From assembly GCF_020520285.1 (NCBI RefSeq), contig NZ_CP084742.1, positions 4,960,001 to 5,024,000 on the forward strand: a stretch of 64,000 nucleotides of DNA, given 5' to 3'. This document shows positions 1,533 to 14,580 of this stretch, piece after piece (the first letter of the stretch is position 1; each line of letters begins with the position of its first letter). Below the pieces are notes generated by a model, which worked only from the letters and a program-made list of their open reading frames with translations, was not told where the DNA came from and made no database searches. Source of the DNA: Pseudomonas sp. L5B5. Its GTDB lineage: Bacteria > Pseudomonadota > Gammaproteobacteria > Pseudomonadales > Pseudomonadaceae. A program made the position numbers and the translations under genes.

Positions 1533-1606
1533 CGCACACTCCTTTGAACGAGCCGGGTGCATAGCGCGCACCCGGCATTCCTTTCAGTGATGGTGGTGGT
1601 CGGGAG

Positions 1607-4043: not shown

Positions 4044-5222
4044 TTAGCGTTTCCATTGGGCGCGTTTCAGCGACCAGACGTAATCCAGCCTGTGGTAACC
4101 GATGAATTTTTCATCCGGCAGTACGCTGGTGGGATAGACGATGCCGTCGTTCTCCGGCAGGGCGAAGTCGAAGAAGGTGTTCTTCTTGATGGCGGCAGTG
4201 TTGTGGCAGGCCAGGCACGAGGAGCTGCTCTGGAACGCCGACTCCAACTGCGAGTTGGCCAGCAGCTTGGGCTCCGGCTGATTGCGGTCGTACTCCACAC
4301 CGATCAGTTCGTACTGCGCCAGCGATGGGTGCTGCTGCTGGAACTGGGCATTGACCGGCTTGGCGGCGTCGGTCGGCCCGGTGGTGTTGATCAGCGGCTC
4401 GGGCGGCGTCTGGTTGGTCACGGTGTAGTCGGAGTTGTGGCGGTTCTCGAAGGTGGTCCATGCCCAGTCGGGGGTCAGCTTGTTGATCACATGCATGCCG
4501 CTGAGACCGGCAAACCCCACGTGGTAGTTGCCCATCTTGTCGATGTAATAGCCCTGGGCGATGTAGTAACCCTGGCCACTCAACTGCTGCTTGAACGCGT
4601 CGTCGCCGCCGATCCACAGCCAGGAGGTCTTCAGTTCCCAGGCCGTGTCGGGGAACACCAGGTCTTGGGTCAGGGCCGCGAGGCCGTTACGGTTGTAGAC
4701 CTTCAGCTGGACGATGTAGTTGTAGGTCTGCTCGCCCATCAACAGGTGGAAGCGCACGGGCTGGCCAGCCTGCGCCGGTGGCGCCTTGTTGCCCATGTAG
4801 AGGGCCAGGCCATCGACCTGCTGGATACCGTTGTTGGTGCTGCCGTCACGGTCGTCGCCCAGGTTCAGGAACAACCCTTTGGGGTCCATTCCGGGGATGC
4901 CACTGGCTGCCTGGGTCACCGGGGCCGGAACGTTGGCAGGCATGTTGTAGGGCAGGGGAGGTCCGCCGTTGCCGAGGTACACCTCGTCGGACGGCTTGAA
5001 GGATTCCCAGACCATTTGCGAGCTCTTCGACGGATCGGGTTCGTTCAGGCACACGAACCAGTTCCAGGCCATGGTCTCCGGGCTCTGCTTGAACGTGGTC
5101 AGGGTGCCGGCCTGATCCCCATTGAACGTCAGGAAGTTGCTGCAATTGAAGGCGGGCGTGCTCTGTGCCTGAGCGAGCCCGCTCAGCACACTCAGCACGA
5201 CTATAGGGATGGTTCGCCGCAT
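4044..5222 (-). CDS. Exported protein with a C-terminal c-type heme motif (392 aa)
   Basis: The start is the ATG at 5222, with AAGGAG 5 nt upstream. A signal peptide (MRRTIPIVVLSVLSGLAQAQ) is followed by a long region of unknown fold. Near the C-terminus lies CLACHN, one CxxCH heme c attachment motif. The likely product is therefore a periplasmic mono-heme protein, perhaps a redox partner or oxidase-like enzyme. The start codon lies inside the end of eboF (22-nt overlap), which ties this gene and those after it to the ebo transcript. Its substrate is unknown. That the motif binds heme is inferred from CxxCH plus the export signal. Confidence 0.75.
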   Translation of the reverse strand: MRRTIPIVVLSVLSGLAQAQSTPAFNCSNFLTFNGDQAGTLTTFKQSPETMAWNWFVCLNEPDPSKSSQMVWESFKPSDEVYLGNGGPPLPYNMPANVPAPVTQAASGIPGMDPKGLFLNLGDDRDGSTNNGIQQVDGLALYMGNKAPPAQAGQPVRFHLLMGEQTYNYIVQLKVYNRNGLAALTQDLVFPDTAWELKTSWLWIGGDDAFKQQLSGQGYYIAQGYYIDKMGNYHVGFAGLSGMHVINKLTPDWAWTTFENRHNSDYTVTNQTPPEPLINTTGPTDAAKPVNAQFQQQHPSLAQYELIGVEYDRNQPEPKLLANSQLESAFQSSSSCLACHNTAAIKKNTFFDFALPENDGIVYPTSVLPDEKFIGYHRLDYVWSLKRAQWKR

Positions 5223-6646
5223 GGAATCTCCTTGGCCGGAGCCGTGTCTTCATCGGGGCGCCCTAGGAAATGCGCTAGGAGCAGGTGCTTTACCGCAGTG
5301 GCCGGCAACTGCTCCGGCAGTGGTAAATCGCAATCGGTGATCAGCAGCGGCCCGACCTCGGGGCTGCTCGGCAAGCGTCCATGGCTGCCGCGTACCAGCC
5401 CGGTATCCAGGGGGATCAGGTCCATGTAGTAGCGAAAGCCGAGTTTCTTCTGCAGCAGCCGGCGGGCTACCCGCAGCTTGGGAAAGCGGATCGCCGGGTC
5501 GACGAACAGCTCCAGCGGGTCGTAGCCCGGCTTGCGGTGGATATCCACGGTACGGGCGAAGTCGGGGGCCAGGCGGTCGTCGAACCAGTAGTAGTAATCG
5601 AACCAGAAGCCCGGTGCGGCCAACGCCACCAGCTCGCCACTGCGTGGGTGGTCGAGTTGCCAGGCCCGTTGCTCGGCCTTGTCCAGTACCTGCTCGATAC
5701 CGTGCTGGCGCAGGAGCAGTGTCTTGACCCGGGCCACGTCCTCGGGCCGGCGTACATACACGTGGGCGATCTGGTGGTCGGCCACCGCGAAGGCGGCGCT
5801 GGCGCCGGGGTCCAGCAGCTCCCAGGCCACGGAATGGCGCACTTGCAACAAACCTTGCTCGCGCAGGATGCGGTTGATGGAAATCGACTGCTGCACGGGT
5901 TCGATGCCGTATTCGGAAACCAGCATCACCGCCGCACCCTGCTGCCGGGCGAAGTCCAGCAGGCGTCCGACTTCATGATCGATGGCCCGCACCTCGTCCG
6001 CGATGGATGGGTGTTCGGGCCCTACGCGTTGCAGGCTGTAGTCCAGGTGCGGCAGGTAGACCAGTTGCAGGTCGGGGCGGGTGATCTGGAATTCGGCCAT
6101 GGCGCAGTCGACGATCCAGCGACTGGAGGCAATCCCGGCCGCCGGGCCCCAGAAACCCGGAAACGGAAATTCGCCGATCTGCTGCTCGATGCGTTGGTGC
6201 AGGTCCGCCGGCGACGAATACAGGCCGAACAGCTTGCGCCCATCCGCCGGATAGTGCGGGCGCGGGGTAATGGCGGCACTGACCTCGGCGTACATGTTGA
6301 ACCACCAGAACAGCTGGCTGCAGCGCAGGCCCGGGAGTTCCCGTTGCAGGGTGTGCCAGACCTTCTCGCCCTGGATCAGGGCATTGGGTTGCAGCCAGAA
6401 GCGCACTTCGGCCTGGTCGCGAAAGTACCAGCCGTTACCGACGATGCCGTGCCCCGAGGGAGGCAACCCGGTGAGGATCGAGGCCTGCACCGTCGAGGTC
6501 ACGGCCGGGAATACCGGCAGCAGCCGAGCCATCTGCGCCCGTTGCCGCAGGGCATTGATCCGTGGCGTGGCCGGCCCCAGCAGGCTGGGGGTCAGGCCCA
6601 CTACGTTGATCAGCAGCAACGGCTGGCGGGCATGCTCAGTAGGCAT
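5201..6646 (-). CDS. eboF: EboF-type alkaline phosphatase/nucleotide pyrophosphatase family protein
   Basis: The 481-residue product belongs to the alkaline phosphatase/phosphodiesterase superfamily. N-terminally FPAVTSTVQASILTG carries the Thr that acts as nucleophile in nucleotide pyrophosphatases, followed by PPSGHGIVGNGWY. Mid-protein, YLPHLDYSLQRVG supplies a metal-ligand Asp and SEYGIEP lies where further ligands are expected. There is no signal peptide, so a cytoplasmic site is likely. The ATG at 6646 overlaps the end of eboE by 11 nt. EboF proteins are encoded with a TatD-like, a UbiA-like, a cyclase-like and a TIM-barrel gene in ebo clusters; the substrate is unknown. Confidence 0.85.
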   Translation of the reverse strand: MPTEHARQPLLLINVVGLTPSLLGPATPRINALRQRAQMARLLPVFPAVTSTVQASILTGLPPSGHGIVGNGWYFRDQAEVRFWLQPNALIQGEKVWHTLQRELPGLRCSQLFWWFNMYAEVSAAITPRPHYPADGRKLFGLYSSPADLHQRIEQQIGEFPFPGFWGPAAGIASSRWIVDCAMAEFQITRPDLQLVYLPHLDYSLQRVGPEHPSIADEVRAIDHEVGRLLDFARQQGAAVMLVSEYGIEPVQQSISINRILREQGLLQVRHSVAWELLDPGASAAFAVADHQIAHVYVRRPEDVARVKTLLLRQHGIEQVLDKAEQRAWQLDHPRSGELVALAAPGFWFDYYYWFDDRLAPDFARTVDIHRKPGYDPLELFVDPAIRFPKLRVARRLLQKKLGFRYYMDLIPLDTGLVRGSHGRLPSSPEVGPLLITDCDLPLPEQLPATAVKHLLLAHFLGRPDEDTAPAKEIPCGEPSL

Positions 6647-7874
6647 GGGCGGGCGCCTCCAGGGCACTGGACTGGGCACGCAGCAGCTGGCGCTGACGCA
6701 GTTGCCCCTCGACCCATTGCAACTCGGCAGCGATGCCTCGCAGCAAGGCCTGCTGGGTATCCGGACGCAGGGCGCCGGGCAACACGTTCCAGCTGTAGGT
6801 CTCGACCTCCAGCACCGGCTGGAAGTGCGGATGCTCGGCCAGGAAGTCGAAGGTCTGCAGCAGGGCCTGCTGGCTGCCGTGGAGCTCGGCCAGCAGGAAC
6901 TGTTCGCTGAACAGCGGCACATGGAAATGGATGCGCAGTTGCGGGCAGTGCCCCTGGACCGCTGGCGCCGCTTGCAACGCCGCCGGCAGGTCGGCCCAGG
7001 CCAGCAGTTGGCCTTCGGCATCCCGCGCCTTGACCTGATGCAGGTAGGTGGCCTCGACGAAGTTGCCCAGGGCTTGCAGGACCTGTTCGCGGCGCTGACG
7101 GTCGGCGAACGGCAACTGGCACACCAGGGCGTTGGACAGCTGGATCTTGCCCACGGGCACCCGAGCCTCCAGCAGGTGCTGCAGGGCCTGGTAGCAGTCC
7201 TCGAACATCACCGCCTGGTGGCAGACATCGAAGCACAGGGCCAGGTAGCCATGATGGGGGTCGACGCTGCGCCAGTGCCTGAAGAAGGCAATGGCCTGCT
7301 CGGTGTTCTCCAGCACGCAGTCCGGTTCCATCTCCAGGCACAGCTGGATCTTCTTGCCGCTCTGGCGATGCAGGCTGGCCAACTCGGCGGTCAGTTGGCA
7401 CAACTGCTGCTCGGCCTGTTGCTGCTGGGCCGGGTCCCAGGTGGCGGCGTAGCCCAGGGGCACGCTGGAGATCACGCCCTGGTGGCAGTCCAGGGGCAGG
7501 GCGGCGGCCAGCAGGTGGGCCAGTTGCAGGCTGTATTCCAGGCGCTGCGGTTCGGCCCAGGTTGGCCGGTAGACCTCGGCCTTCACCGCGCCCTCATGGA
7601 ACTGGCCATAGGGAAAGCCATTGAGGGAGGTCAGGCGCACCCCGCACTCGTGCAGCAGGTCGAGGAAGGCCTCGCGAGCCTGCGGCTCCTGCAACTCGGC
7701 GGCGGCCCGGGCGCTGATCCACAGGCCGCTGTCCTGGACCGCCAGCCCGCGTTGCCGGCGTACCTCCTGGAACTGTTCCCGGATCGAGGCCCGCAGGGCG
7801 GCCAGGTCCGGCGCCGGGTGCACGTTGCCGCAGTAGCCCAGTTGCGCTGCGCTCCAGCCGGTCCGCCCGCTCAT
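6636..7874 (-). CDS. eboE: EboE-type xylose-isomerase-like TIM barrel protein
   Basis: The 412-residue product has the pattern of the xylose isomerase-like TIM barrel (sugar phosphate isomerase/epimerase) family. Candidate metal or active-site residues are Glu in CLEMEPDC, Asp and His in CFDVCHQAVMF, and Glu near the end in PVLEVETYSWNVLPG. Ebo cluster members of this type are annotated as metabolite traffic protein EboE. The start ATG at 7874 overlaps the eboB stop by 4 nt (ATGA), implying translational coupling. An ATG in frame at 7919 is less likely because it would run deep into eboB. Confidence 0.88.
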   Translation of the reverse strand: MSGRTGWSAAQLGYCGNVHPAPDLAALRASIREQFQEVRRQRGLAVQDSGLWISARAAAELQEPQAREAFLDLLHECGVRLTSLNGFPYGQFHEGAVKAEVYRPTWAEPQRLEYSLQLAHLLAAALPLDCHQGVISSVPLGYAATWDPAQQQQAEQQLCQLTAELASLHRQSGKKIQLCLEMEPDCVLENTEQAIAFFRHWRSVDPHHGYLALCFDVCHQAVMFEDCYQALQHLLEARVPVGKIQLSNALVCQLPFADRQRREQVLQALGNFVEATYLHQVKARDAEGQLLAWADLPAALQAAPAVQGHCPQLRIHFHVPLFSEQFLLAELHGSQQALLQTFDFLAEHPHFQPVLEVETYSWNVLPGALRPDTQQALLRGIAAELQWVEGQLRQRQLLRAQSSALEAPAHAY

Positions 7875-8755
7875 TTGACCACCGGTTCCTGGCCCCGCAG
7901 GGCGGAGTTGTCCTGCCACTGGCGACGCTGGTCGATGGGTAACGGGGTGCCCACCAGGTGCTTGTCCAGCTGTCCGCTCTGGGCAAAGAAGTCCACCGGG
8001 TTGTGGAACAGCACTTGTTCCACCTGGCTCTCGCTGAAGCCGGCGGCCAGCATCGCCTGTCCGGTCTTGGGCACCTTGAGCGGGTCGCTGATGCCCCAGT
8101 CGGCGGCGCTGTTGACCACCATCTTCTCGGTGCCGTACTGCTGCAGGAGCGCCACCATGCGCTGCTCCGACATCTTGGTGTTGGGGTAGATCGAGTGCCC
8201 GCGCCAGCAGTCGCTGTCCAGCACCAGGGGCAGGGTCAGTTCGTTGAGGTGATCGATGATCACCAGGTGTTCGGCGATCCCCACTTCACGGATCACCGCC
8301 AGGGTGCGCTTGGTCCCGCCGATCTTGTCCCGGTGCGGGGTGTGTACCAGCACCGGCAGGTTGAACTGCCTGGCCAGCTCGAGTTGCGCGGCGAGGAAAC
8401 GATCCTCTTCGGGGGTGATGTCGTCGTAGCCGATCTCCCCGACGGCCACCACGCCATCCTTGACCAGGTAGCGCGGCAGGATCTCCAGCACTTCGTTGGC
8501 CACCGACAGGTCGTTGGCCTCCTTGGGGTTCAGGCCAATGGTGCAGAAATGATGGATGCCGAACATGCTGGCGCGAAAGCGCTCCCAGCCCAGCAGGGTG
8601 TCGAAGTAATCGATGAAGCTGCCAACGCTGGTGCGGGCCTGACCTTGCCAGAACGCCGGCTCGATGACCCCGGTGATGCCGGCGGCGGCCATGTTCTGGT
8701 AGTCGTCGGTGGTGCGGCTGACCATATGGATATGCGGATCGAAGTACTTGGCCAT
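7871..8755 (-). CDS. eboB: EboB-type TatD family metal-dependent hydrolase
   Basis: The 294-residue product shows the TatD amidohydrolase pattern. It has an N-terminal HxH (DPHIHM), a Glu in VGEIGYDD, His in LVHTPHRD and IIDHLNE, and a late Asp in NSAADWG, the usual ligand set for a two-metal TIM-barrel hydrolase. The ATG at 8755 has AAGGA about 6 nt upstream; it is the only gene of the ebo run with a clear gap (55 nt) before it. TatD relatives act as nucleases or esterases. In ebo clusters the true substrate is not known, so no reaction is assigned. Confidence 0.9.
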   Translation of the reverse strand: MAKYFDPHIHMVSRTTDDYQNMAAAGITGVIEPAFWQGQARTSVGSFIDYFDTLLGWERFRASMFGIHHFCTIGLNPKEANDLSVANEVLEILPRYLVKDGVVAVGEIGYDDITPEEDRFLAAQLELARQFNLPVLVHTPHRDKIGGTKRTLAVIREVGIAEHLVIIDHLNELTLPLVLDSDCWRGHSIYPNTKMSEQRMVALLQQYGTEKMVVNSAADWGISDPLKVPKTGQAMLAAGFSESQVEQVLFHNPVDFFAQSGQLDKHLVGTPLPIDQRRQWQDNSALRGQEPVVK

Positions 8756-8810
8756 GGTGAATCCTTGAGGTAGTGGTGGAGGAAACTCGACGCTCGCCGT
8801 GGCGGGCGTT

Positions 8811-9575
8811 TCAGGTACCGGACGGGAGGTGCCCCAGCCAGTGCGCCGGCAGGCGGCGCTGTTGGCACAAGCCACGCAGGCGCTGGAGCTGGGCCGGGCT
8901 CAGCTGCTTGAAGGCAATGGCCTGAGGCAGGCTGTCGCTGACGTTGCGCCCCGCCGCCAGGTGTTCCTCCATGTGCTCCAGGGCCAGTTGGTTGAGGTCG
9001 ACGCTGTGGCGCTGGGCCAGGCCGGCGATGCGCCCGCAGTCCAGGCCCATGCCCAGGGTCTTGAGCACCAGTTGATGGAAGGCCCGGTCCTGGTAGTGGC
9101 GTGCGACGAAGGGGTTGTCCAGGGCGATGGCGGCGAACACCTCGCGGTTGTTGGTGCGCCCGGCCTGCAAGGCCAGCTCGAGGCTGCTGCCCTGGCTGTC
9201 GAGGTCGTCCAGGATCTTGAGCAGGACGCTTTTTTCCTGGTCGTCGCCCCACAGGAACAATTGGCGCAGCAGTGGCAACTGTCCCGCGGTGTCCTGCTGT
9301 TCGAGCAATTGTCCCAGGAGCACCGCGCGAGCCAGCTGTGCCAGGTTCCAGCCCGGGTTCTGTGGCACTGGCGTATCGCCGAGGCGCCGCCGGCACTGGC
9401 TGCTGAGCAGCACCAGGGAATTGGCCGTCGGCTGGTTGGCCAACTGCTCCAGGCTGCGCTGCCACCAGATGCGGGTGTCGTTGTCCAACTGCTGTTCCAG
9501 CAGCCGGCGGCGTTCGACAAGGGCTTCATGGCGCATGACGAGGGCAGGCGAGGGGGTGATGACGTCCGTGGTCAT
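8811..9575 (-). CDS. eboA: EboA domain protein, helical, function unknown
   Basis: The 254-residue product is almost entirely alpha-helical, rich in Leu, Gln and Arg, with HEAT-like spacing (LARAVLLGQLLEQQDTAGQL, LALQAGRTNNREVFAAIALD). There is no signal peptide, membrane segment or catalytic motif. Its assignment as EboA rests on size, the region around DNPFVARHYQDRAFHQLVLK, and its place between the UbiA-like and TatD-like genes. The ATG at 9575 overlaps the eboC stop by 4 nt. A scaffold or adaptor role is possible but unproven. Confidence 0.8.
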   Translation of the reverse strand: MTTDVITPSPALVMRHEALVERRRLLEQQLDNDTRIWWQRSLEQLANQPTANSLVLLSSQCRRRLGDTPVPQNPGWNLAQLARAVLLGQLLEQQDTAGQLPLLRQLFLWGDDQEKSVLLKILDDLDSQGSSLELALQAGRTNNREVFAAIALDNPFVARHYQDRAFHQLVLKTLGMGLDCGRIAGLAQRHSVDLNQLALEHMEEHLAAGRNVSDSLPQAIAFKQLSPAQLQRLRGLCQQRRLPAHWLGHLPSGT

Positions 9576-10456
9576 GTCGGCTTGATCCAGCGTTGAAGGT
9601 GGGGGAGCAGGAAGAACACCAGCACGCACAGCAGGCTGCCCAGCGGCTGGTTGGCCAGGGCCAGTACCAGGGCATCGAACAGCGGCAGGGCGGCGAGCCC
9701 GGCACCGATGAAGGCGCGGATCTGCCGCTGCCGGGGATTGGCCAGGTGGCGTTGGTAGTGCCAGCCCAGCCAGCCCAGCCAGAGCAGCAGCACCAGCCAG
9801 AACACGCTGTTGTCGGCGTAGGCGGCCAGGGCCAGGGGACTGAGCATCAGCAGCAGCGGCAGGCGGCTGAGCAGCTGGTTGCGATGTTCCAGCCGCGCCA
9901 GGTAGGTCAGGCCGGCGATGTAGCTGCCCAGCAGGGCGGCGCACAGCCACAGCGGTTGCGGCGGCAGGGCCAGGCTGGCCGCCGCGGTCAGGTACAGGGC
10001 CGAGCGGCAGCCGCCCATCAGCCAGACGCTGTGGGGATACTTCTTGTGCAGCAGGTCGTAGGCCAGGATGAACAGCAACAGCAGCCCGGCGCTGGCCAGC
10101 AACCAGTGGGGCTGGGCGATCAGGTGGCTGAGCCCGAGTACCGAGAGGGCCGCCAGCAACAACAGGATGGCGGTGGCCAGGCTGACCTGGGTGCTGCTGA
10201 CCAGCCCCAGGACGATCGGTCGCGGATTCTGGTGGCGCCGGTCCCAGTCGGCGTCCAGCAGGTCGTTGAGCAGCATGCCTGCCAGGTACAGCGCCGACAG
10301 GGCTACCAGCAGCAGGGTCCAGACCAGCGGCGAGGGCGGGGCCAGGGCCGTGGCACTGCTGGCCAGCAGGGCGGCGGCCATGGCGTTGGTCCATACCGTC
10401 GGCAGGTTGGAGACCCGGCCCAGGGTCAGCCAGGTGGTCAGCGAGGACTGGGTCAT
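9572..10456 (-). CDS. eboC: EboC-type UbiA family prenyltransferase-like membrane protein
   Basis: The 294-residue product is a multi-pass membrane protein of the UbiA type, with about eight hydrophobic segments. The first Asp-rich motif is NDLLDADWD (UbiA pattern NDxxDxxxD), placed after the second segment. The second motif region is weaker (YDLLHKKYPHSVWLMGG). UbiA enzymes transfer prenyl groups to aromatic acceptors in the inner membrane; here the acceptor is unknown. The N-terminus (TLGRVSNLPTVWTNAMAAAL) is typical of the family. The ATG at 10456 overlaps the eboD stop by 4 nt. Confidence 0.88.
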   Translation of the reverse strand: MTQSSLTTWLTLGRVSNLPTVWTNAMAAALLASSATALAPPSPLVWTLLLVALSALYLAGMLLNDLLDADWDRRHQNPRPIVLGLVSSTQVSLATAILLLLAALSVLGLSHLIAQPHWLLASAGLLLLFILAYDLLHKKYPHSVWLMGGCRSALYLTAAASLALPPQPLWLCAALLGSYIAGLTYLARLEHRNQLLSRLPLLLMLSPLALAAYADNSVFWLVLLLWLGWLGWHYQRHLANPRQRQIRAFIGAGLAALPLFDALVLALANQPLGSLLCVLVFFLLPHLQRWIKPT

Positions 10457-12336
10457 TGCGCGCAGCCCTCGGTCCAGGCGAAGTTCGGCCCGCCGAAGCT
10501 GGCCAGGCGCGACAGAGCCTGCTCCATCACCGGCAGCTCGATGTGATGCAGGTCGATCGATTGTCCCAGGCGCTTGAGCATAGGGATCGACAGTTGCCCG
10601 CCCAGGTGCTGGCGGAACTCCTCCAGCCCTTGCAGCACCAGGAAGCGTCCCTGGGCATCCTTGAGGTTCAGCTCCGGCGGGCACAGGTGAAAACCCAACT
10701 GGTCGAGCAGTTGCAGCAAGCGCCGGGTATCGGCGTTGCCCAGGAGCCCGATGGCATTGGCGTAGAGCGCATCCAGGGCCATGCCCACCGCGACCGCTTC
10801 GCCATGGCGCAAGCGATGCTGGCTGAGGTTTTCCAGCTTGTGCGCGGCCCAGTGGCCGTAGTCCAGTGGCCGGCCGTTGCCACGCTCGAAGGGGTCGCCG
10901 GCGCCAGTGATATGGCCCAGGTGCAGTTCGGCGCAGCGGCGGATGGCATAGCGACTGGCGTCGTGCTCGAAACCGGCCAGGGCTTCGGCCTGCTGCTCCA
11001 TCCACTGGAAGAACGGCGCATCCTTGATCACCGCGACCTTCACGGCTTCGGCCAGGCCGGCGATCTGGTCGCGGGGCGACAGGCTGAGCAGCAACTGGAA
11101 GTCGTTGATCACGGCGCTAGCGGGGTAGAAGGCGCCCAGCAGGTTTTTCTGGGCGAAGGCGTTGATGCCGTTCTTCACTCCGATGCCGGCATCGTTCTGC
11201 GCCAGCACGGTGGTGGGGATACGGATCAGGCGCATGCCACGGTGGAAGGTGGCGCAGGCATATCCCACGGCATCCAGCACCGCGCCACCGCCCAGGGCCA
11301 GGACATGGCAATGCCGATCCAGGCCGTGTTCGAGCATGTGCCCGTACAGCTGCTGCAGGACTTCGGGCGTCTTGCACAGCTCGCCGGCTGGCACGGGAAT
11401 CGGCGCGGCCTTCAGGTGCAGGTCGGTGGCATGGGCACTGAAGTACTCGCCGATCTGTTGCGCCAGTTGCGGGCAGCAGCGCAGCAACTGTTCATCGGCC
11501 AGAACCAGCACCGTGGCGCGTGCGCCGGCCTGGTGCAGCAGTTGCTGGTGCAGGCAGGGGTTGTCGACCTGGAACAGGTGGTCGCTGAACAGCACCGGGT
11601 AGTGATAGCTGACCTCGAAGCGCCCCTCCAGTACCTGCCCCTGATCGGTAGGGGGCTGCACGCGGCGTGGCTTGAACAGGCTACGAGCGCCCAGGAGCAG
11701 GCCCGGCAGGACCATGCTGGCCAGGATGGTCGCCAGCAGGGCGTTCTGTTCCACCAGCAGGCTGCCGATGGCTGCGTAGGCCAGGGCCAGCCCGGCATTG
11801 GCCAGGGTCGTGACCAACAGGAACTGGCGCAGCGGATAACGCTGCATGCCGGCGGCCAGTACTGAGGTTTCCGCCAGGACCGGCACTCCCCGCAGGCAGA
11901 TCAGCGACAGGGTACTGAGGCGATAGGCCAGTTGGCCGGGCTGCCAGGTCCGCAGGCCCAGCCAGCTGGACAGCAGGCGAAAGTAGCCGGCCCCCAGCCA
12001 GTAGCCCAGGGCGGCACCCAGGCACAGGCCGACAAAGATCACCAGGTAACCGCCGACGGCCCCCAGGGCGGCCACGGCCAGGAGCGCCACCAGGCTGGAA
12101 GGCACCGGCAGCAGGACATCCAGAGCCAGCAGGGCGACCAGCAGCAGGGCCAGGCTGGTGCGCTGCACGGGATCGGTGGGGAGGAAGTTGCCCAGATGTT
12201 CGAGCAACTGCTGAATCTGCTCTTCGAACAACAGGAAGCTGGCGATCACCAGGACCGAAAACAGCACTAACGAGAGCCAATAGTTTTCAGCTGTACCCTT
12301 TAATGAAAAGGCACGAGGCAACGAACTGCGCTTCAT
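10453..12336 (-). CDS. eboD: EboD-like sugar phosphate cyclase fused to an N-terminal DedA/VTT membrane domain
   Basis: The 627-residue product has two parts. Residues about 20-225 form five or six hydrophobic segments with DedA/VTT features (LLPVPSSLVALLAVAALG, then GVPVLAETSVLAAGM). Residues about 240-600 are a 3-dehydroquinate synthase-like sugar phosphate cyclase. They carry the NAD-binding GGGAVLDAVGYACATFHRG, then IPTTVLAQNDAGIGVKNGIN, and metal-site candidates in GLAEAVKVAVIKD, YGHWAAHKLE and RHGEAVAVGM. The cyclase part shows EboD-like changes (for example GVKNGIN where aroB has GGKTGVN). I chose the ATG at 12336, preceded by GAGGG; a TTG lies just upstream. It is the first gene of the run. 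Confidence 0.87.
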   Translation of the reverse strand: MKRSSLPRAFSLKGTAENYWLSLVLFSVLVIASFLLFEEQIQQLLEHLGNFLPTDPVQRTSLALLLVALLALDVLLPVPSSLVALLAVAALGAVGGYLVIFVGLCLGAALGYWLGAGYFRLLSSWLGLRTWQPGQLAYRLSTLSLICLRGVPVLAETSVLAAGMQRYPLRQFLLVTTLANAGLALAYAAIGSLLVEQNALLATILASMVLPGLLLGARSLFKPRRVQPPTDQGQVLEGRFEVSYHYPVLFSDHLFQVDNPCLHQQLLHQAGARATVLVLADEQLLRCCPQLAQQIGEYFSAHATDLHLKAAPIPVPAGELCKTPEVLQQLYGHMLEHGLDRHCHVLALGGGAVLDAVGYACATFHRGMRLIRIPTTVLAQNDAGIGVKNGINAFAQKNLLGAFYPASAVINDFQLLLSLSPRDQIAGLAEAVKVAVIKDAPFFQWMEQQAEALAGFEHDASRYAIRRCAELHLGHITGAGDPFERGNGRPLDYGHWAAHKLENLSQHRLRHGEAVAVGMALDALYANAIGLLGNADTRRLLQLLDQLGFHLCPPELNLKDAQGRFLVLQGLEEFRQHLGGQLSIPMLKRLGQSIDLHHIELPVMEQALSRLASFGGPNFAWTEGCAQ

Positions 12337-12943
12337 CAAGCGTCCCTCTTGATTGAATTGACTGATTCCATGTCGGTGTCGGTAGTTCGAGTTCGAGCGT
12401 GTTTGCGGGAGAGTCCTCGGCTGTTTTTATTGGTTTTCTAGCGGCTGAACAGCGCTTCAGTGGCGAGTAGCTATCAAGTTAGTCAAGGCCCTGGCTTTTG
12501 CAAGCGCACCGAATGAAGTGGCTCATAACGCAGTTTTATGGCTCGTTGGGAAAGTATTCTGAAAAGCTATTAAGGGTGCTGCATCGCCAATGTTTTCGGG
12601 GTTGCGGCGGAGGAAGAGTTCAAATGGTGGTTTTAAATGATGAGTTGAAATCGGTACTAACTATTAGCCGGCTACTAAGTAGCTGGCTTGTTTTGGTGGC
12701 CATTTAGTTGAATTGATTGATTAAACTTTCACGGTAACTAGGCGTTGAAGTAGATTTATCCTGGGTAATGCAACTCATTCTCATGAGTTGGGTTTTCGCT
12801 GACTGTTTTCAATCGGGCCTTAGTTGATTGACTGTTCAATCATTGTTCTTGCTAGTTTGTCGTGCAATGACCAGGGCTAAGGTTGTCCGTGCTGGCCGGA
12901 CAACCTTGCACAAGATGCGACCCGTTGAGCTTCAGGTGCGGAT
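12337..12943. other. AT-rich intergenic region upstream of the ebo run
   Basis: These 607 bases are clearly poorer in G and C than the genes on either side and hold no convincing gene. They must contain the ebo promoter (minus strand), although I could not place confident -35/-10 boxes. Visible elements are a near-identical 15-nt repeat at 12353-12367 and 12708-12722, a perfect 8-bp inverted repeat at 12771-12790, and an Rsm-like ACATGGAAT on the minus strand at 12364-12373. A plus-strand frame at 12498-12707 is open, but its codon use is unlike Pseudomonas genes. Confidence 0.6.
12771..12790. repeat. Perfect inverted repeat, possible operator
   Basis: The arms CAACTCAT and ATGAGTTG are exact complements separated by TCTC. 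There is no T-run on either side, so it reads more like a protein-binding palindrome than a terminator. It lies about 170 nt beyond the 3' end of the cysteine hydrolase gene and 435 nt upstream of eboD. Its role is unknown. Confidence 0.55.
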
Positions 12944-13495
12944 TCAGGCCGTGGCCAGGAACTCGTCGGTGGACAGGACGCTGGCATAAGCGAAGGCCAG
13001 GGCCGACATCACTGCGCTCTGGACCTGGGCCGCCGGTACTGCCTGGCCGTTGAACTCCAGGTCCAGGGTGGCGCAGGCATCGTGGATCACCTGTACCGGA
13101 TAGCCCAGGTCGGCTGCGGCCCGAGTGGTGCCTTCCACGCACATGTGGCTCATGTTGCCGACGATCACCAGTTCCTCGATGCCCTGTTGCTGGAGGATCG
13201 ACTGCAACCGGGTTTCGCGGAACGCGTTGACGAAGTGCTTGAGCACCACCGGTTCATCCCCCTGGTTGCGAACCTTGGCGTGCAACTGCGCGCCCTCGGA
13301 GCCGGGGGTGAAGAAGGGCGCGTCCTGGGTGTTGAATTCGTGGCGGATGTGCAGCACCGGGGCGGCCTTCTGGCGAAAGGCCGCGATCAGCCGCGCGGCG
13401 TTGTCCGCTGCGGCATCGACCCCCGCCAGCGGCCATTTGCCTCCGGCGAAGTAGTCGTTCTGGATATCGATTACGATGAGTGCCTGTCTGGCCAT
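12944..13495 (-). CDS. Cysteine hydrolase of the isochorismatase superfamily
   Basis: The 183-residue product has the isochorismatase-like fold signature. The probable catalytic triad is Asp10 (LIVIDIQNDY), Lys86 (VVLKHFVNAF) and Cys119 (GNMSHMCVEG). Enzymes of this superfamily hydrolyse isochorismate, nicotinamide, N-carbamoyl compounds and related substrates; the substrate cannot be told here. The ATG at 13495 has GGAGG 8 nt upstream. It is divergent, across 101 bp, from a GlxA-type regulator, which probably controls it. Confidence 0.9.
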   Translation of the reverse strand: MARQALIVIDIQNDYFAGGKWPLAGVDAAADNAARLIAAFRQKAAPVLHIRHEFNTQDAPFFTPGSEGAQLHAKVRNQGDEPVVLKHFVNAFRETRLQSILQQQGIEELVIVGNMSHMCVEGTTRAAADLGYPVQVIHDACATLDLEFNGQAVPAAQVQSAVMSALAFAYASVLSTDEFLATA

Positions 13496-13596
13496 GGGTA
13501 TTGCCTCCAAGTGATGGTTCGATGTGGGGCCAGTATCGGCCTGTCGCATTGCCTGGAGGATTGGCCGCATCGACATTAACAGGGGGAAAACTGACA

Positions 13597-14580
13597 GTGG
13601 GCATTCAAGCCACGGTTGCCGAAGTGGGCGTACTGCTTTACCCGGGCGTGCAGATGGCTGCGGTGCACGGCTTGACGGACCTGTTCCAGGTGGCCAACCG
13701 GGTGGCCGGCGAGCAGTCCCAGGGGGCGTTGCCGGTGTTGCGGATCAGCCATTGGCAGGCCGCTGACGAACAGGCGCCGAGGCGGACCTATGACAGCCTG
13801 GACGGCGCCACCGCAGGGTTGCAGGCGCTGGTGATCCCACCGGCGCTGGCCGGGTTCTGCTCCAGCCAGTCGTCCGCGGCGCTGGTGGGCTGGCTGCGTG
13901 AGCAGCATGCCGCTGGCGCGACCCTGGGAGGCGTCTGCGTGGGTTCTATCCTCCTGGCCGAGAGCGGTTTGCTCGATGGGCGCAGCGCCACCACCCACTG
14001 GACGTCGGCCAAGGCTTTTGCCGCTCGTTATCCACAGGTACGGCTCGAGGCCGAGCAACCCATCGTCGACGATGGCGACCTGATCACCACTGCGGGCCTG
14101 ATGGCGTGGGCCGAGTTGGGGTTGCGCCTGGTGGACCGCTTGCTGGGGCCCGGGGTGGCCAGGGCGACCGCGCGCTTTCTGGTGATGGAACACAGCGACA
14201 GCGCCAGCCAGTGCGGCAGCAACTTCGCCCCGATCCTCAGCCATGGCGATGCCGCGATCCTCAAGTTGCAGCACTGGCTGCAGGCCAATGGCGCGGTGGA
14301 TGTATCGCTGGCGGCGATGGCCCGGCAGGCGGGGCTCGAGGAGCGGACCCTGCTGCGGCGTTTCCGCGCGGCCACCGGGCTCAAGCCGACCCAGTACTGC
14401 CAGCATCTGCGGGTGGGCAAGGCGCGGGAAATGCTCGAGTTCACCACGGGCACCATCGATCACATCGCCTGGACCGTGGGCTACCAGGACCCGGCGACCT
14501 TTCGCAGCCTGTTCAGGAAGATCACCGGCCTTGCGCCCAGCGAGTATCGCAACCGCTTCGGTGCCGCCCGGGGCCAGTGA
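13597..14580 (+). CDS. GlxA-type transcriptional regulator (DJ-1/PfpI domain plus AraC helix-turn-helix)
   Basis: The 327-residue product has an N-terminal DJ-1/PfpI domain with the nucleophile-elbow region GGVCVGSILLAESGLLDGR followed by TTHW. A C-terminal AraC-type DNA-binding domain follows (VSLAAMARQAGLEERTLLRR, then IDHIAWTVGYQDPATFRSLF). The start is taken as the GTG at 13597 behind an AGGGGG run; no ATG fits in frame nearby. Members of this group often sense small nitrogen compounds and activate a neighbouring catabolic gene. The divergent cysteine hydrolase is the obvious target. Confidence 0.9.
   Translation: MGIQATVAEVGVLLYPGVQMAAVHGLTDLFQVANRVAGEQSQGALPVLRISHWQAADEQAPRRTYDSLDGATAGLQALVIPPALAGFCSSQSSAALVGWLREQHAAGATLGGVCVGSILLAESGLLDGRSATTHWTSAKAFAARYPQVRLEAEQPIVDDGDLITTAGLMAWAELGLRLVDRLLGPGVARATARFLVMEHSDSASQCGSNFAPILSHGDAAILKLQHWLQANGAVDVSLAAMARQAGLEERTLLRRFRAATGLKPTQYCQHLRVGKAREMLEFTTGTIDHIAWTVGYQDPATFRSLFRKITGLAPSEYRNRFGAARGQ

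Follow-up and report, generated by a model that had tools for sequence, protein, structure and literature searches.

A 64,000-nucleotide stretch of the Pseudomonas sp. L5B5 genome (contig NZ_CP084742.1, positions 4,960,001 to 5,024,000; hereafter the window) almost certainly carries an ebo operon of the EDB type. The operon lies on the minus strand of a single-contig genome of 6.81 Mb, and its six ebo genes, contiguous from position 12336 down to 5201 in the order D-C-A-B-E-F, are followed by six further genes (g7 to g12). Profile comparison identifies two of these, g8 and g11, as homologues of the N-terminal region of VioB, the imine dimer synthase that links two tryptophan-derived units on the way to the violet pigment violacein. 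This kind of cluster is already known and the class of its product is already published. The function of ebo, however, has been open since its description in cyanobacteria, algae and many bacteria, and it is tied here to VioB-related and likely exported heme proteins within one operon.

The presence of six linked ebo genes in this order agrees with a preliminary description of the window made from its letters, as does their assignment to ebo/EDB. EboE (7874-6636; 412 residues), a TIM barrel protein, scored 409 bits against NF035939 (curated cut-off 250), and homologues of the other five Ebo proteins adjoin it. EboD (12336-10453; 627 residues) joins an N-terminal VTT/DedA-like membrane domain (42 bits, cut-off 34) to a sugar phosphate cyclase (PF09335, PF01761 and PF24621; 611 bits against NF004852, cut-off 333). 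EboB (8755-7871; 294 residues) is a TatD-like hydrolase (PF01026; 45 bits, cut-off 27), and EboF (6646-5201; 481 residues) belongs to the phosphodiesterase fold family (PF01663; 215 bits, cut-off 23) with an altered metal site. A search with Ebo profiles had been proposed as a check; in it, EboE and the EboA domain (NF035938; 129 bits, cut-off 50) lay above their cut-offs, while the longer EboA model NF035937 (72 bits, cut-off 320) and the EboC equivalog NF035940 (73 bits) fell below theirs, the latter far short of 250. EboA spans 9575-8811 (254 residues); EboC (10456-9572; 294 residues) is a UbiA-like membrane prenyltransferase (48 bits against UbiA, cut-off 34; listed at 48.5 bits for PF01040).

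The ebo genes had been described as overlapping mostly by 4 nt and as forming a complete cluster. Overlaps of 4 nt were found at three of the five junctions (D/C, C/A and B/E), but E/F overlap by 11 nt and a gap of 55 nt separates eboA from eboB. Likewise, all six ebo genes are there, yet the operon comprises twelve genes, since g7 to g12 continue on the same strand: g7 (5222-4044; 392 residues), g8 (4033-1607; 808 residues), g9 (1532-588; 314 residues) and g10, of which only the part encoding the N-terminus lies in the window (574-1). Beyond the window, positions are given on locus L040, from which window positions follow by subtracting 15000; there g10 is whole (L040:15574-14282; 430 residues) and is followed by g11 (L040:14278-12458; 606 residues) and g12 (L040:12443-11391), a putative beta-propeller with weak matches only. 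The far end of the operon thus lies approximately 3.6 kb past the low end of the window. In all 39 Pseudomonas loci read, g7 starts inside eboF (overlap 22-31 nt) and is separated from g8 by 4 to 12 nt; g10 and g11 are 3 nt apart in 29/29 loci, with a median of 31 nt between g11 and g12 (n = 29). Because the gaps across the Pseudomonas loci are small, the simplest reading is that the twelve genes from eboD to g12 form one transcription unit. A 411-residue open frame (dn411) that reads against the operon below g11 was considered and rejected; it appeared conserved by tblastn but is not intact in relatives, and the gene at that place is g12.

In its make-up the operon resembles the EDB cluster of Pseudomonas fluorescens NZI7, of the same genus, with which it was compared by published description. 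Passages of PMC6282210 describe the NZI7 cluster as a full ebo cluster with extra open reading frames, some with signal peptides; L5B5 has the full ebo set and extra frames, some with signal-peptide-like starts. The six proteins are also homologous to those of the Nostoc punctiforme ebo cluster. Unlike that cluster and other ebo clusters, the L5B5 locus has the order D-C-A-B-E-F, an EboD fused to VTT and g7 to g12 attached.

Among 298 genomes of the same genus, EboE scored above its cut-off in 38, L5B5 included. The distribution of g8 is almost identical: it was found in 39 genomes, namely all 38 with EboE and one other (G206), whose contig begins within eboF. Of the 39 genomes with g8, 32 also have g11, which is intact in 31 and split in two in one; none was detected in the remaining 259. 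Two further genomes matched the g11 alignment solely via g8. Of the 39 Pseudomonas loci, 28 carry the full set of twelve in a single order, eight lack g9 to g11 beside ebo, one lacks g9 and two are cut by contig ends, and the six ebo genes are accompanied by g7, g8 and g12 in 37/37 loci uncut by contig ends. The order D-C-A-B-E-F recurs in 38/39 loci, the 39th being truncated within eboF where its contig stops. Since the same order is seen in 38 of 39 loci, the arrangement of the ebo genes in Pseudomonas is not a matter of chance. One genome with an ebo locus devoid of g9 to g11 (G169) carries g11 on the same contig, approximately 200 kb from ebo (C13:3357-5183).

Outside the genus the arrangement differs. 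A phylum-wide draw yielded EboE above the cut-off in three of 398 genomes, these being L5B5, one of the same genus and a member of another family (G481) with the order A-B-D-E-F-C. Contigs were also scanned with an EboB alignment, and the best 80 of 589 relatives were analysed; counts of absence in these 80 loci are weak, because only the best 80 were kept and many contigs are short. Forty-three had the order A-B-C-D-E-F, four A-B-D-E-F-C and three D-E-C-A-B-F; two had A-B-F with C-E-D reversed, one had C-F-E-D reversed before A-B, and five were partial. In the comparison of gene order that the preliminary description had called for, D-C-A-B-E-F occurs in none of the 53 non-Pseudomonas loci with all six genes recognised among these 80. 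That ebo gene orders vary is also stated in passages of Yurchenko et al. 2016 (PMC5133447). In 22 of the 80, mostly from Planctomycetota (most of L085-L106, also L110 and L154), only eboA and eboB were recognised within the stretch available; their other ebo genes may lie elsewhere, have diverged or have been lost to truncation of the stretch. Organism names shown for matches to g11 (best 120 of 236) and g8 (best 120 of 177) were all Pseudomonas bar one, 'Pantoea sp. Cy-639' (P0226), whose g8 homologue is 54% identical and represents either a transfer or a misnamed genome.

The relation of g8 and g11 to VioB was assessed by hhalign against a VioB reference of 998 residues from a Chromobacterium subtsugae genome (1701 bits). 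The g11 alignment matched VioB residues 1-577 (P 96.6%, E 6.3e-10) and the g8 alignment residues 1-380 (P 95.7%, E 8.9e-9), whereas a negative control, the EboF alignment, gave P 0.1%. Scans with single sequences against the VioB model pointed the same way, with E 2.2e-7 for g11, 9.5e-9 for one of its relatives (model positions 78-580) and 1.4e-4 or 1.4e-3 for g8. The likeness between g8 and g11 themselves is weak (E 2e-6) and lies at the C-terminal end. Both proteins are thus homologues of the N-terminal region of VioB as judged by these alignments. They nevertheless fall outside the VioB family proper, since neither contains the ferritin-like domain PF12902 found at the C-terminus of VioB (neither has any Pfam match at all) and their scores against TIGR04492 (16.5-20.6 bits for g8, 29.1-33.6 for g11) are far under the cut-off of 1250. 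A TIGR04492 search of the L5B5 genome yielded nothing at E 0.001 but carries no weight, as its controls gave no signal either. No PDB relative of g11 was found at E up to 1, and an AlphaFold model of g8 built from 16 sequences (mean pLDDT 57.7) was not used.

Two other genera place the missing half beside ebo. Among the 80 loci, VioB-N-like genes were detected (at E 1e-3) in 3/3 from Chromobacterium, in 1/1 from Trinickia and in 0/76 others. These four loci, alone among the 80, also have a frame right after the VioB-N-like gene that encodes a relative of the Chromobacterium ferritin-like protein (E 9e-240 to 1e-57, not counting L158, which supplied the query). PF12902 was confirmed in two of the four (L158, 217 bits; L159, 202 bits), and the protein from L158 is similar to the C-terminal half of VioB (E 3e-7). 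Given the N-like gene followed by the ferritin-like gene in all four loci, both halves of VioB are, by homology, present as separate neighbouring genes beside these ebo clusters. Homologues of g9 precede the pair in L158 and L161 (60% and 56% identity), two of the three Chromobacterium loci; none was found in L159. These findings make the connection to VioB firmer in other genera and at the same time bring out what Pseudomonas lacks, so that our overall assessment is unaltered: no relative of the Chromobacterium ferritin-like protein was seen in the 39 Pseudomonas loci, and PF12902 had no match in the L5B5 genome. Judged by these homologies, Pseudomonas has kept the N-terminal half of VioB, in one or two copies, without the ferritin-like half. 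Chromobacterium subtsugae G687 shows, in addition to VioB itself, weak matches to the VioB model in C-half-like and N-half-like frames (C76:78748-79077 and C17:3155-3370; L163, L164).

The genes g7 and g10 are paralogues whose products likely are exported heme proteins, as judged by a C-terminal CxxCH motif (39/39 g7 and 29/29 g10 sequences) and by signal-peptide-like starts. Such a start was also found in the Cys-rich g9 protein, which had no Pfam or NCBIfam match. The rule used to call these starts is crude and flags EboF and EboB too, so that export of g7, g9 and g10 is not proven. The predicted structure of g7 appears similar in its beta fold to cytochrome P460/c'-beta, with which it shares the C-terminal CxxCH: all 16 top VIA-align rows were P460/c'-beta proteins, and Foldseek returned no match at E 0.001 or better. 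That g7 and g10 oxidise an indole product outside the cytoplasm is a tentative proposal that we hold at less than an even chance. A GC-rich palindrome in the gap between g8 and g9 (window 1552-1576) is perhaps a hairpin for transcript processing or attenuation.

These same proteins might be read quite differently, with g7 to g12 forming a separate envelope or surface system co-regulated with ebo, in which g8 and g11 would be binding or structural proteins, ebo would remodel lipids and deterrence would arise from the cell surface. Such a system would accommodate the signal-peptide-like starts of three proteins, albeit by a crude test, and the lack of a VioB ferritin-like domain in g8 and g11, next to which no gene for such a domain lies in Pseudomonas; it would also suit the absence of the NZI7 deterrent factor from the supernatant (passages of PMC6282210, citing Burlinson). 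We consider it quite improbable in view of the overlapping genes and the linkage of g7 and g8 to ebo in every locus read, of a g11 homology that spans the whole N-region of VioB, and of the two VioB halves that adjoin ebo in Chromobacterium and Trinickia.

The preliminary description stated that the product of such clusters has not been identified, which is out of date. According to passages of a review (PMC9655573), Zhou, Vergis and Mahmud (2022) found that E. coli carrying the EDB cluster of NZI7 yields indoles and that external tryptophan is converted into C. elegans repellents. Two of the EDB indoles are described there as moderately repellent, with chemotaxis indices of -0.18 and -0.08 at 0.2 mM. 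VioB itself is characterised in passages of PMC5577590 as an oxidase that depends on heme and acts together with VioA in the dimerisation of indolepyruvate imine. In view of the review report on NZI7 together with the VioB homology of g8 and g11, the main product is probably derived from tryptophan. Whether g8 and g11 themselves act on an indole substrate is, on homology, an evenly balanced question. In Nostoc, each single ebo deletion tested (A, B, C, E and F) is reported, in passages of PMC6282210, to block export of the indolic scytonemin monomer; by analogy, there is an even chance that the ebo set of L5B5 exports an indole compound.

An alternative is the prenyl-cyclitol hypothesis, set out in passages of Yurchenko et al. 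2016 (PMC5133447) and echoed in the preliminary description. Under it, the Ebo proteins would make a stand-alone prenylated cyclitol that is the active product, and the indoles obtained heterologously would be side products. Residues of both enzymes are compatible with such chemistry. EboD carries Asp492 and His577 at the positions of an Asn and a Lys in 3-dehydroquinate synthase (N268 and K356, which we take to be its substrate-discriminating positions), and the sedoheptulose-phosphate cyclase ValA (4P53) has Asp and His at the same aligned positions. The Asp/His pair is kept in 36/37 Pseudomonas and 57/57 other sequences; at the remaining catalytic positions checked, conservation is 35/37 or 36/37 in Pseudomonas and 57/57 elsewhere, and each exception is a gap or belongs to one aberrant sequence (the alignment of 37 contains one aberrant sequence and two with partial gaps). 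The first Asp motif of EboC, NDxxDxxxD, has its N and three D in 57/57 sequences (37 Pseudomonas, 20 others), while only a Glu is invariant in the presumed second. Furthermore, a VioB-N-like gene was unseen in 76 of the 80 other ebo loci, within the stretches examined. On the residues of EboD and EboC, a prenylated cyclitol is a possible product of the Ebo proteins themselves, though it differs from the deterrent described for EDB and gives g7 to g12 no part. As an account of the active product it is unlikely, given that the EDB repellents in the review passages are indoles, that the Nostoc ebo deletions are reported to block export of an indolic compound and that an EboC homologue, Ubi-297, farnesylates quinolines such as 8-hydroxyquinoline-2-carboxylic acid in vitro (passages of PMC9235831, which do not say if a cyclitol was among the substrates given). 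That EboD and EboC supply a prenyl-cyclitol carrier is a separate proposal, possible on the residues above, towards which we remain somewhat sceptical.

The score of 611 bits against NF004852, a model named 3-dehydroquinate synthase, might also suggest ordinary shikimate and quinone metabolism, with EboD as dehydroquinate synthase and EboC as a quinone prenyltransferase. This is hardly credible: the Asn/Lys pair is replaced by Asp/His in 36/37 Pseudomonas and 57/57 other EboD sequences, and EboE occurs in only 38/298 genomes of the genus. EboD was accordingly rejected as a dehydroquinate synthase. The VTT part was matched in none of the 57 EboD frames outside Pseudomonas (from the 80 loci and G481).

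EboF had been described as phosphatase-like. Its membership of PF01663 stands, but an ordinary working phosphodiesterase is unsupported by its residues. Compared with the bacterial type I phosphodiesterase/NPP structure 2gsn, a member of the same family, EboF keeps Thr50, at what we take to be the nucleophile position, and Asp202, presumably a metal ligand, whereas four further positions that we take to be metal ligands hold Val16, Gln206, Glu245 and Tyr246. These four residues are the same in 57/57 sequences (its own and 56 from other taxa), among which other His and Asp residues are invariant; the remaining His ligand of NPP is unmapped by the EboF alignment. The candidate function of ordinary phosphodiesterase was rejected on these four changes, and the residues suggest either a rebuilt site or no phosphodiesterase activity. 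For EboF and EboD alike, the database names phosphodiesterase and dehydroquinate synthase may mislead pathway prediction.

EboB is the most conserved protein of the operon, with a median identity of 97% to 37 Pseudomonas orthologues compared with 58-83% for the other proteins. Its gene is 72% identical at fourfold sites, against 59-65% in seven others, which argues for constraint at the protein level rather than recent transfer.

The leader of eboD contains two candidate Rsm-type hairpins. Rsm proteins recognise an A(N)GGA motif presented in the loop of a hairpin that covers the ribosome site. Hairpin 1 (12335-12353, minus strand) has a 6-bp stem with AGGGA in its loop and covers the eboD ribosome site and start codon; hairpin 2 (12360-12374, minus strand), approximately 30 nt upstream, has GGA in its loop and a 3-bp stem in L5B5. 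AGGGA stands right before the eboD start in 37/37 leaders. Stems of at least 4 bp form in 35/37 leaders for hairpin 1 (20% with shuffled flanks) and in 34/37 for hairpin 2 (34% shuffled; GGA missing in one leader), although these counts are not independent because the leaders are related. Hairpin 1 stems are kept despite sequence change, for example CAAG/CTTG to CAAA/TTTG in three relatives. The default minimum-energy fold of the short leader showed the hairpins in only some of 20 folded. Control of EDB by GacS is reported for NZI7 in passages of PMC4406715, alongside which the hairpins of L5B5 may be set. Upstream of eboD lie approximately 600 bases of AT-rich non-coding DNA (window 12340-12943), and a simple promoter scan there found no sigma-70-like site.

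On balance we lean slightly towards a reading in which an indole deterrent derived from tryptophan and retained at the cell envelope is synthesised, exported and completed by the EDB-type ebo operon. RsmA/E bound to the two GGA hairpins would block translation of eboD until GacS/GacA induces Rsm RNAs. Cytosolic g8 and g11 would then bind or process a tryptophan-derived substrate, for example indolepyruvate imine, and the Ebo set would carry it across the inner membrane, as for the Nostoc scytonemin monomer. The carrier would be a prenyl-cyclitol bound to the membrane, which EboD-VTT and EboC would either make or constitute; EboA would serve as a scaffold, and EboB, EboE and EboF would act in tailoring or binding. 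Outside the cytoplasm, the P460-like g7 and g10, with g9, would perform or complete oxidation. As a single model the full chain is doubtful. Equally speculative is its most specific form, a bis-indole-type assembly line divided between the two sides of the inner membrane, in which stand-alone VioB N-domains would act on tryptophan imines with no ferritin-like half, Ebo would export the intermediate on a prenyl-cyclitol carrier and the exported P460-like heme proteins would take care of oxidation outside. If true, however, such a line would make ebo the common centre of scytonemin, violacein-type and EDB chemistry, and the deterrent produced in the wild would be an oxidised indole compound larger than those simple indoles that E. 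coli yielded.

Through the VioB-related genes, the tie between ebo and tryptophan-derived metabolites outside cyanobacteria becomes genetic as well as phenotypic, and g8, g11, g7 and g10 are single genes with which the export model could be tested in easily handled bacteria. In the literature searched, VioB or RebD was never named with NZI7, 'EDB cluster' or 'ebo cluster', though the primary EDB papers of 2013 and 2022 may say more. As far as that literature shows, several observations appear to be new: the kinship of the non-ebo genes with VioB and, in two betaproteobacterial genera (Chromobacterium and Trinickia), the pair of VioB halves that adjoins ebo; the interpretation of g7 and g10 as P460-like, and the leader hairpins; and, within the sample, the Pseudomonas-only VTT fusion and the altered EboF site.

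Regarding the surroundings of the operon, two genes lie upstream (window 12944-14580), one isochorismatase-like and on the operon's own strand, the other encoding a divergent AraC/DJ-1 regulator. In locus L051, from another Pseudomonas, the genes on either side of the operon encode an AcrB-type efflux protein and a TonB-dependent receptor (L051:25-1203 and L051:17600-19756).

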